From Anaeromyxobacter sp. (GTDB lineage: Bacteria; Myxococcota; Myxococcia; Myxococcales; Anaeromyxobacteraceae): a stretch of DNA of 64,000 nt. Position 1 is the stretch's first letter, and each line of letters opens with the position of its first letter. Below are positions 52,321-57,538 of this stretch, one piece after another. The position numbers and the translations under genes were made by a program. The stretch is taken from the NCBI GenBank assembly GCA_025360965.1, contig JANYBC010000065.1, forward strand, positions 1 to 64,000, written 5' to 3'. The notes beneath the pieces are model-generated. The model had not been told where the DNA came from, did not search any database, and saw nothing but the letters and a program-made list of their open reading frames with translations.

Positions 52321-53093
52321 GTGCCAGGGCGTTGCTGGTGCTGCTGGCCGGGAGCCTGGCCGGTCCGGCCCTTGCCCAGACCATGCTCGATCAGGAGCAG
52401 CGGCTCATCGAGCTCCACTCGCTCTTGCTGGCCCTCCCGGCCCTGGACCCACCCGGCGCGCTGGCTCCGCTGCAGGGGCGGTTCGGGATCGAGGTGGTTG
52501 GCGTGCCGCTCATCGACGGCACCACCGGCGCCAAGACCCAGCTCACCGCCTCCGACCGGACCCGGATCATCCCGCGGCTGCGCGGCGCGCTCGGGCTCCC
52601 GCTGGGGAGCGACTGGCGGGCCTTCGTCGGGGTCGGCTGGATCCCGCCCATCGTGATCAACCGGGCCAGCTCCAGCATGGTGGGGCTCGAGGCCGGCGCC
52701 GCCTGGAACGCCGGGGCCTTCTCGGCCGGGCTCAGGCTGCACGGCGAGCGGGCCGACTCGAGGAGCCCGGTCACCAGCCCCGACACCCGCGACCGGCTGC
52801 TCACCCTGATCGGCGGCGCTGATCTCACGGCCGGCTGGCGCGTCGAGCTCGGGCCGGCGACGCTGACGCCCTACGCCGGGCTCGGAGTCGCCCGCGTCGA
52901 CGGGACCTTCACGGTCACCAGCGACGGCTACCGGCTCACCAGCCGGACCACCGACCTGGTGCTGGCCGCCGGCGCCCGCCTGCTGCTGCTCCGGCAGGTC
53001 GAACTGGTCGCCGAGCTGGTCGCTTGGCCCGGCCTGCTGGTCCATCCGGGCTTCGCCGTCGCCTGGGTGCCCCAGTTCGGCCCAGCTCAGTAG
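52317..53093 (+). CDS. Predicted outer membrane beta-barrel, coupled to the propeller lipoprotein
   Basis: 258-aa exported protein starting with the GTG of a GTGA overlap. Signal ARALLVLLAGSLAGPALAQ. Alternating strands follow (DWRAFVGVGWIPPIVIN, SMVGLEAGAAWNAGAFSAGLRLHG, WRVELGPATLTPYAGLGVARV, VELVAELVAWPGLLVHPGFAVAWV). The terminal residues (QFGPAQ) are not the classical aromatic end. Likely an outer membrane partner of the lipoprotein; function unknown. Its stop overlaps the convergent cupredoxin-like gene by 7 bp. Confidence 0.6.
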   Translation: MSARALLVLLAGSLAGPALAQTMLDQEQRLIELHSLLLALPALDPPGALAPLQGRFGIEVVGVPLIDGTTGAKTQLTASDRTRIIPRLRGALGLPLGSDWRAFVGVGWIPPIVINRASSSMVGLEAGAAWNAGAFSAGLRLHGERADSRSPVTSPDTRDRLLTLIGGADLTAGWRVELGPATLTPYAGLGVARVDGTFTVTSDGYRLTSRTTDLVLAAGARLLLLRQVELVAELVAWPGLLVHPGFAVAWVPQFGPAQ

Positions 53094-53521
53094 CCGCCAC
53101 CACCGCCGCCGCCGCCCCCCCCGGTGGTGGGTGGGTGGGTGGTGTCCTGCCAGCCGCAGCTCTTCGGGCCGGTGAAGGGTCCGGCGGCGAAGGTGTTGCC
53201 CGCCGCGATCGTTGTGCCGGAGGTGAGCTCGTTGCAGGAGGACTGGCTGTTGTTGGCCACCCGGTGCGCCGAGGCGTCGTTATTGAAGAAGGCGACGCAG
53301 TCGCCGGCGTTGATCGGCACCGTGTGGGTGTCCACGGTGGTTGCGGTGAAGACCACCTGGGAGGTGGTGAGGCAGTTGGTGGTCCCGGTCGGCATGGTGC
53401 CGGAGACGATGATGACTCCGGTGAATGCGTTCAGCGGCGGGCCCGAGGCGGGGGCGTCGCTCCCGCCGCAGGCGGCCAGTCCGAGCACGGCAGAGAGGGG
53501 GAGGGCAATTCCGATTCGCAT
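53087..53521 (-). CDS. Cupredoxin-like lipoprotein with polyglycine tail
   Basis: 144-aa lipoprotein; lipobox VLGLAAC and good Shine-Dalgarno AAAGGAG before ATG 53521. A single domain (about residues 33-130) has VPINAGDCVAFFNNDASAHRVANNS and GPFTGPKSCGWQDTTHP, the order His...Cys...His of a cupredoxin copper site, although the loop spacing is not canonical and no Met follows. Three further cysteines may form disulphides. The protein ends with ten glycines and a tyrosine. Electron transfer or metal binding is likely; the partner is not known. Confidence 0.6.
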   Translation of the reverse strand: MRIGIALPLSAVLGLAACGGSDAPASGPPLNAFTGVIIVSGTMPTGTTNCLTTSQVVFTATTVDTHTVPINAGDCVAFFNNDASAHRVANNSQSSCNELTSGTTIAAGNTFAAGPFTGPKSCGWQDTTHPPTTGGGGGGGGGGY

Positions 53522-53624: not shown

Positions 53625-53650
53625 CAAGCTGCTCGCCCCAAGGAGGTACC

Positions 53651-53815
53651 CTGTCTTCGACGACACAGCCTCGCATCCTCGCCGTCAGCCGCGCCCTCCC
53701 GCCGCACCACGCAGACCGGATCCGCCACTGGGCGGCGCACACCGGCGGGCCCAAGGTGTTCGAGGCGGCCTTGGGGCCCGGCTTCGCCGCCGAGCTGCTG
53801 CTGCTGGCCTGGTGA
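53651..53815 (+). pseudogene. Collapsed type III polyketide synthase gene (54 codons left)
   Basis: Directly after AAGGAGG a frame opens with CTG (no ATG or GTG). It keeps the PKS N-terminus (PRILAVSRALPPHHAD, residues 7-22), then RHWAAHTGGPKVFEA (25-39), which matches the conserved HPGGPK block, then LGPGFAAELLLLAW (41-54), which matches the GFGPG-type C-terminus. A full enzyme is about 350-390 aa with Cys/His/Asn catalysis; none of these residues remains. Junctions fall near 53717 and 53768 and both keep frame. It heads the operon, 3 bp before the methyltransferase. Real decay or assembly collapse are both possible. Confidence 0.7.
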
Positions 53816-53818
53816 CCT

Positions 53819-54382
53819 ATGCTCGGCCCCGTCGCGCTGCTTCACGCCTACCTGCTGCTGCTCCTCGTCGAGCGCGTCGCCGAGCTCTGGCTCTCGGCCC
53901 GGAACTCCCGCCGGGCGCTCTCCGCAGGCGCCGTCGAGAGCGGGCGGGGGCACTACCCGGCCATGGTCCTCTTCCACGCCGGCTTCCTGCTCGCCTGCGC
54001 CGTCGAGCCGGTGCTCTGGCCGCGCCGCTGGCCCCCCGGGCTCTCGCTGGCAGCGCTGGGGCTCGCCCTGCTCGCCATGGCGCTCCGCTGGTGGGCGGTG
54101 GCGACGCTGGGAGAGCGCTGGTCGACGCGAATCCTGGTCCGGCCCGGCCTGCCGCTGGTGAGCACCGGCCCCTACCGGCTGCTGCGCCACCCCAACTACC
54201 TGGCGGTGGTGCTGGAGCTCCTGGCGGTGCCGCTCATCGGCGGGGCGCTGGTCACGGCGGCGGCCGCCACGCTCGGCAACCTGCTCCTGCTCGCGATCCG
54301 CGTCCGCGCCGAGGAGCGGGCGCTGGGGCTACGGTCCGGGCCGGGACCCGCGGCCCGCGCCGGGTCCGGGAGCGGCGCGTGA
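53819..54382 (+). CDS. ICMT-family methyltransferase of the polyketide operon
   Basis: 187-aa polytopic membrane methyltransferase of the isoprenylcysteine carboxyl methyltransferase type. Membrane helices near residues 5-22, 45-60, 72-92 and 128-148. SAM-binding signature GPYRLLRHPNYLAVVLELLAVP and RAEERAL at the end. GRGHYPAMV is typical of the version found beside type III PKS genes (SrsB of Streptomyces), which O-methylates alkylresorcinol-like phenols. Its stop overlaps the ACP start by 4 bases. Substrate inferred from context. Confidence 0.85.
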   Translation: MLGPVALLHAYLLLLLVERVAELWLSARNSRRALSAGAVESGRGHYPAMVLFHAGFLLACAVEPVLWPRRWPPGLSLAALGLALLAMALRWWAVATLGERWSTRILVRPGLPLVSTGPYRLLRHPNYLAVVLELLAVPLIGGALVTAAAATLGNLLLLAIRVRAEERALGLRSGPGPAARAGSGSGA

Positions 54383-54656
54383 CCGCCCCCGAGGCGGCGG
54401 TGGTCGGCGAGCTGCTGCGCCTGGCCGCCACGCAGCTCGAGTTCGACGGGCCGCCGCCGGGGCCGGACGAGCCGCTGGCCGGCCGGCTCGACTCGCTCCA
54501 GCTGCTCACCCTGGCGGTGGCGATCGAGGACCGCTTCCAGGTCATCCTCACCGACGACGAGGCGGCCGAGGCGACCACGCTGCTCGCGGTGGCCCGGCTG
54601 GTCCTGGTGCGCGCCGACCCGGCGCGGCTCCCCGCTGGCCGGCCGCCGGAGGCTGC

Positions 54657-54660
<4 letters not shown>
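54379..54660 (+). CDS. Acyl carrier protein of the polyketide operon
   Basis: 93-aa carrier protein with the phosphopantetheine attachment serine in GRLDSLQLLTLAVAIEDRF (DSL motif). Four-helix ACP pattern and a short Pro/Ala-rich tail. The GTG start overlaps the methyltransferase stop (GTGA), and its own stop overlaps the ligase start the same way. It would receive the acyl group activated by the next gene's AMP-ligase and hand it to the synthase as starter. Confidence 0.85.
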
Positions 54661-56446
<1,786 letters not shown>

Positions 56447-56450
<4 letters not shown>

Positions 56451-57538
56451 GCGACCGGGTCCACGACGTGGTGGTGGCGGGTGGAGGTCCGGCCGGGATG
56501 GCGCTGGCGGCCGCGGCCGCGGGGCGAGGGCTCGACGTGCTGCTGGTCGAGCACCGGCGCTTCCCCATCGACCGGGCGTGCGGGGAGGGGCTGCTGCCGG
56601 CCGGCGTGCGCGCCCTGCAGGAGCTCGGGCTCCGCTCCAGGCTCGGCGCCGCCGACGCCTCGCCCATCACGGCGCTCCGCTGGATCGACGCGGCCGGTCC
56701 GTCGATGGAGCTGGCGCTGCCTGCGCCGGGCGGGCTTGGGGTGCGGCGCACCGCGCTCTCGGCGGTCCTGCTCGAGGCGGCCCGCCGGGCCGGTGCCGAG
56801 ATGCTCGAGGCCGAGGTGGAAGACCACAGGCGCGACGCCGGGCTGGTCGAGGTGAGGACCTCGGCTGGGCCGGTGCGCGGTCGGCTGCTGGTGGCCGCCG
56901 ACGGCCGGGGCTCGCCGATCCGTATGCGGGAGGGGCTCGACGCCGGGGCGGGGAGCCGGCCGCGGTTCGGGATCAGGCGTCACCTGGCGCTGGCACCCTG
57001 GAGCAGCGCCGTCGAGGCCCACCTGGGTGCGGGGGTGGAGGCCTACGTGACGCCAGCCGGTGTCGGGCGCGTCGGCGTCGCCTTCCTCTTCGAGCCCCCG
57101 AATGCCGGAGGTTGGTCCGCGCTCCTCGGCAGGTTTCCAGTGCTGGCGGCACGGCTCGAAGGGGCCGCTGTCCTGTCCGAGGACCGCGGCGCCGGGCCGC
57201 TGGTGCGGGGCTCGACGGCGAGGGTGCGCGACCGGCTGGTGCTCCTCGGCGACGCGGCCGGCTCGATCGACCCGCTGGCGGGCGAGGGCGTCTCGCTGGC
57301 GCTGGCCGGGGCGCTGGAGCTGGCAGGGCTGCTCCCCGACGCCATCGTCGCCGGGGCCACGCGCGAGGCGCTGCGCGGCTGGGAGCGGGCCTGGCAGCGG
57401 CGCCAGCGTCCTGCGGTGGCCTGGGCGGCCCTGCTGCTGGCGTTGACCAGACGGCCGCGGCTCCGGCGCCGCCTGATCTCGCTCGGCGCCGCCCGCCCTC
57501 GCCCGCTGGAGCGGCTGGTGGCGCTGGCGCTCGGCTGA
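56447..57538 (+). CDS. FAD-dependent oxidoreductase of the polyketide operon
   Basis: 363-aa flavoprotein of the PHBH/geranylgeranyl reductase-like fold. GxGxxG nucleotide site VVVAGGGPAGMALAAAAAGRGLDVLLVEHRRFP at the N-terminus, then DRACGEGLLP, the ADGRGSPIR block and the FAD/ribityl motif LLGDAAGSIDPLAGEGVSLAL around residue 270. Comparable to SrsC-type hydroxylases that convert alkylresorcinols to quinols, but dehalogenase-like or reductase activity is also possible. Last gene of the operon; converges on tag with a 20-bp gap. Confidence 0.85.

Follow-up and report, generated by a model that had tools for sequence, protein, structure and literature searches.

A decayed type III polyketide synthase gene at the head of an ftp/srs-type operon in Anaeromyxobacter sp.

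Gene content of the locus

The window analysed here is a stretch of 64,000 nucleotides from Anaeromyxobacter sp. (assembly GCA_025360965.1, contig JANYBC010000065.1, positions 1 to 64,000 of the forward strand). It includes an operon of the ftp/srs type, whose gene set comprises a type III polyketide synthase (PKS), an ICMT-family methyltransferase (ICMT), an acyl carrier protein (ACP), an acyl-AMP ligase (FAAL-like) and an FAD-dependent oxidoreductase (Table 1). This set is complete in relatives and, counted over the whole genome, here as well; within the window operon the PKS is its sole broken member. In place of the PKS there is a single open frame (54 codons and a TGA) with the translation LSSTTQPRILAVSRALPPHHAD-RIRHWAAHTGGPKVFEA-ALGPGFAAELLLLAW, and the ATG of the ICMT gene lies 3 nt past its stop. 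Compared with the sister species Myxococcales SKS1.bin67 (G003), dN/dS is approximately 0.35 for ICMT and 0.29 for FAAL; the window operon thus appears to be still in use.

Table 1. Features of the remnant locus in window coordinates. L004 is the operon on contig C6 of G003 (G003:C6).
Feature	Position	Strand	Basis
Divergent upstream gene, exported, cupredoxin-like (inspection)	53087..53521	-	synteny anchor common to G003
Shine-Dalgarno AAGGAGGT	53640..53647	+	sequence; anti-SD duplex -12.7 kcal/mol, strongest among those compared
Type III PKS remnant, 54 codons, first codon CTG, TGA stop	53651..53815	+	translation; 144/165 identical to L004/G003:C6 PKS
N-terminal block LSSTTQPRILAVSRALPPHHAD	53651..53716	+	57/66 identical to L004
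Junction 1, 753 nt (251 codons) missing vs G003:C6	53715..53717	+	breakpoints equivalent over 3 positions; microhomology short, imperfect
Middle block RIRHWAAHTGGPKVFEA, catalytic His kept	53717..53767	+	42/51 identical to L004; Pks11 alignment
Junction 2, 156 nt (52 codons) missing vs G003:C6, catalytic Asn block included	53764..53767	+	two-jump alignment
C-terminal block ALGPGFAAELLLLAW and stop	53768..53815	+	45/48 identical to L004
ICMT-family methyltransferase, intact	53819..54382	+	PF04140, E 1.5e-23
Acyl carrier protein (ACP)	54379..54660	+	PF00550, E 9.7e-9
Acyl-AMP ligase, FAAL-like	54657..56450	+	PF00501, E 2.9e-51
FAD-dependent oxidoreductase	56447..57538	+	PF01494, E 1e-16

The divergent gene upstream has no Pfam match and is 44% identical to the gene at the same place in L004/L102. 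Its product, a putative exported cupredoxin-like protein, ends in a long glycine run; the protein also occurs in L004. In the interval from the divergent gene to the PKS, L004 carries in addition a fragment (L004:2412-2699) that looks on inspection like the beginning of a renalase-like FAD/NAD(P) oxidoreductase. This fragment is absent from the window, where the corresponding stretch is about 600 nt shorter.

The composition of the operon varies between genomes. In genus g4, the PKS of G006, G011, G015, G017, G019, G020, G021 and G023 is adjoined by ACP and/or FAAL with no ICMT match, while G022 of the same genus has an ICMT. The methyltransferase seems to be dispensable in this genus.

Origin of the remnant

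The reference for alignment of the remnant was L004 (JAJZQX010000003.1), which a scan with the ICMT next to the remnant had identified as the same operon, and in which the position of the remnant is taken by an intact, 357-codon PKS. An exhaustive two-jump alignment places 144 of the 165 bases of the remnant in three colinear blocks of identity to this gene, with a breakpoint ambiguity of 3-4 positions at the junctions. Relative to L004, 753 and 156 nt are missing, both multiples of three, as read from a single draft assembly of 259 contigs. The window locus and G003:C6 are syntenic over about 20 kb at 73-83% DNA identity, and therefore the match of the remnant to the G003:C6 PKS is not due to chance. 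A Pfam search with the 54 residues, hits with E up to 10 included, returned no family, the pieces being too short for a profile match. We regard the syntenic pairwise alignment as the decisive evidence for a PKS origin of the remnant.

These results bear out the sequence-only reading of the window, which had described three pieces of a type III PKS in one frame and a loss of about 300 codons in two in-frame steps (303 codons by the alignment). Full-length synthases, for which that reading had suggested a search in close relatives and in the rest of the genome, were found in both places: in G003:C6/L004 and other relatives, and on contig C23 of the window genome. Its statement that the catalytic Cys, His and Asn were all absent holds for Cys and Asn, whose blocks (GLGCLAG and VGNLSS) are deleted, and fails for His. 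The remnant retains AHTGGPK, whose counterpart in the solved Pks11 is SHPGGPK, an alignment that gives the catalytic His column. The catalytic His303 of plant chalcone synthase is part of HPGGP. A functional type III PKS possesses the Cys-His-Asn triad in a full thiolase fold; the 54 residues of the remnant include the His block only, and it is predicted to be catalytically dead. The locus thus has what is expected of a gene remnant derived from a type III PKS, namely colinear homology at a syntenic position, an intact orthologue in relatives, and essential parts lost here.

That the gene is really full length, and that the assembler skipped two pieces of it or merged a strain mixture, has to be considered for a draft genome in 259 contigs. 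However, microhomology at the junctions amounts to a few bases only, not enough for a k-mer assembler to have made the joins without real reads, and the pieces have no long repeat in the genome, the best other match to the remnant being 81% over 47 bp. A comparable PKS collapse has also occurred independently in G003, on a contig of 417 kb (G003:C27). An assembly artefact, one of the options raised in the sequence-only reading, is on these grounds very unlikely.

The retained codons bear on a further option of that reading, a PKS-derived microprotein with a function of its own, which might for example compete for dimerisation or substrate. The open frame, the strong Shine-Dalgarno and the retention of the catalytic His block would suit such a protein. 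Against it, three residues of the remnant (S at 12, A at 278 and F at 287, L004 numbering from zero) are absent from 63 relatives, whereas G003 has no such residue in the 48 columns examined; a single-sequence structure model is all helical at a mean pLDDT of 68, which is weak evidence; and among the genomes searched no second one carries the 54-codon form. We therefore consider a microprotein extremely improbable. Some intact, more distant relatives likewise carry two or more unseen residues, so that those of the remnant are at most a mild hint of relaxed constraint. Differences between the remnant and G003 are distributed 8/1/12 over the three codon positions (dN/dS approximately 0.23). This coding-like pattern is to be expected if the decay is recent, and most of the divergence between remnant and G003 is probably older than the collapse.

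Start codon

The CTG first codon behind a strong Shine-Dalgarno, pointed out from the sequence, was confirmed, with the duplex energy listed in Table 1. At the start position the PKS genes of relatives have ATG, GTG, TTG or CTG. Intact orthologues in G002 and G014/L033 have CTG there, behind Shine-Dalgarnos of -12.3 and -10.3 kcal/mol, respectively, and by this comparison the CTG would not be peculiar to the remnant. Because these intact genes also have other in-frame starts upstream, with weaker Shine-Dalgarnos, CTG remains a putative start. A CUG start is possibly common to the type III PKS genes of these relatives. CTG stands at the PKS start position, preceded by a Shine-Dalgarno, in L104 (G002:C196), L123 (G014), L033, the window (53651), L101 (approximately 9314) and L103 (approximately 7570). 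A scan for promoters and terminators detected no element.

A second copy of the operon

The genome of the window (G000) contains one true type III PKS, on C23 (L101:9326-10384, 353 aa), which carries GLGCLAG, AHTGGPK and VGNLSS. A match on C140 was rejected as a second one; it is weak, comparable weak matches occur in most genomes of the set, and it is taken as KASIII-like. No ICMT, ACP or FAAL was found beside the C23 PKS. These three genes and the FAD gene are each present in a single copy in the genome, in the window operon. The stop codon of the C23 PKS is followed by ATGCCC and then by a scar that matches the FAAL 3' end and its flank on G003:C27, from which we conclude that C23 holds the leftover of another copy of the operon. 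The intact genes of the two copies in this genome therefore do not overlap, C23 having the PKS only and the window the rest.

It is unlikely that C23 was misbinned from an organism of the same genus. Its GC content is 0.713, and GC and tetranucleotide profile lie inside the range of sampled G000 contigs. Several stretches and genes of C23 are 80-89% identical in G003 and have no second copy in G000 (given as 100% complete), as expected if C23 belongs to this genome.

In the sister species the PKS pattern is reversed. Copy A of the operon is intact on G003:C6, whereas on G003:C27 (L103) PKS residues 2-39 are joined to 300-353, with 783 nt lost in frame, next to a truncated ICMT and a FAAL C-terminus. 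Scraps of a second PKS-ICMT-ACP-FAAL operon are visible at L103:6783-7555. In copy B, CTG stands at the identical codon in both species. Each of the two sister species has thus kept the PKS of a different copy.

Between the two species, DNA identity of the copy-B pieces is 95%, with the genome-wide identity of G000 and G003 judged from the compared loci. Since the syntenic copy A region is clearly less similar (73-83%), the comparison suggests that copy B moved laterally between the lineages after their split. A DNA search for a donor in 145 genomes of the order found nothing above 78% over the gene besides the G003:C27 scraps (95%). The PKS tree leaves the relationships of C23, G003:C6 and G002 open and does not separate duplication from transfer.

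Based on these observations, the remnant is probably the decayed, dead first gene of an ftp/srs-type operon. This operon has the order type III PKS - ICMT - ACP - FAAL - FAD oxidoreductase, with a phenolic lipid as predicted product, and traces of two copies of it are visible. Copy A, in the window, lost its PKS by two deletions and kept its other genes. From copy B, on C23, deletion removed ICMT-ACP-FAAL and spared the PKS, which leaves each gene once, over two loci. Loss of the window PKS would have been tolerated because the C23 synthase acts in trans, supplying polyketide to the loading and tailoring enzymes of the window. The collapse is probably recent, and translation from the CTG of the remnant may persist.

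Why the remnant is in frame

The in-frame state of the remnant may matter as well, as its stop so close to the ICMT start would deliver ribosomes to a gene with a weak Shine-Dalgarno. Taken further, selection might have kept the remnant as a CTG-started leader of 54 codons that couples translation to ICMT, as the sequence-only reading had proposed. Such a role would be compatible with decay of a duplicate and give the remnant an added function. The Shine-Dalgarno of ICMT is poor (-3.8 kcal/mol, compared with -7.0 for ACP, -9.5 for FAAL and -12.7 for the remnant), and ICMT is under purifying selection. The chance that two deletions both keep the frame is 1/9, and ribosomes in the other two frames would meet a stop only 343 and 842 nt beyond the ICMT start. 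Over the two species, all three PKS-internal deletions (window and G003:C27) are in frame, while both deletions that reach from ICMT into FAAL shift the frame. However, the probability of 1/27 for three in three was spotted post hoc in a small sample; GC-rich DNA holds frames open, the remnant frame being open for 277 codons upstream; the in-frame remnant of G003:C27 now sits before a broken ICMT; and the 54-codon remnant is carried by one genome only. Selected coupling is therefore a tentative reading that we think somewhat unlikely.

In a stronger form, a mobile second copy would have displaced the native PKS, and selection would have kept the CUG-started 54-codon leader solely to feed ribosomes to ICMT. 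We consider this improbable. If it were true, head genes of translation-coupled operons would as a rule collapse in frame, as in three of the three PKS-internal deletions here.

Relation to known systems

Decay of a duplicate, the reading that we prefer, makes the remnant real but ordinary, the product of duplicate loss and not a new kind of protein. Reciprocal loss of duplicated genes (divergent resolution) is a known process, in which sister lineages lose different copies, as here. The present case differs from the usual one in that loss went gene by gene inside an operon with readable scars, and that one copy was apparently laterally moved. A literature search on reciprocal loss in bacterial operons returned no close match. 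The novelty lies in the instance only, a pair of operons resolved at the level of single genes, with sisters keeping the PKS from opposite copies.

The closest system is the ftp cluster of Myxococcus xanthus, from the same phylum, where the type III PKS FtpA is supplied by a fatty acyl-AMP ligase, according to the accounts of Hayashi et al. (2011) in PMC5916927 and PMC10896814. The cluster combines type III PKS and fatty acyl-AMP ligase, as do the window's relatives (PKS-ICMT-ACP-FAAL-FAD); the likeness is one of gene set, and here the operon PKS is a 54-codon remnant with the intact PKS on another contig. A looser likeness is seen to Streptomyces srsABC and the Mycobacterium pks10 operon (PMC5916927). 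In these, and in the myxobacterial alkylpyrone cluster BGC0001831, a type III PKS lies beside a methyltransferase and an oxidising enzyme; the alkylpyrone cluster is reported to be widely conserved, with a duplication in Archangium (PMC12224551). In the window genome, by contrast, the duplicates were resolved by gene losses at two loci that complement each other.

Two sister species are thus seen to have dealt with a duplicate biosynthetic operon in opposite ways, with the scars still legible. In the window genome this would leave one pathway split over two loci, and genome mining based on clusters would score the window operon as dead and the C23 gene as an orphan. The locus also provides a natural test case for in-frame decay of the head genes in translation-coupled operons.
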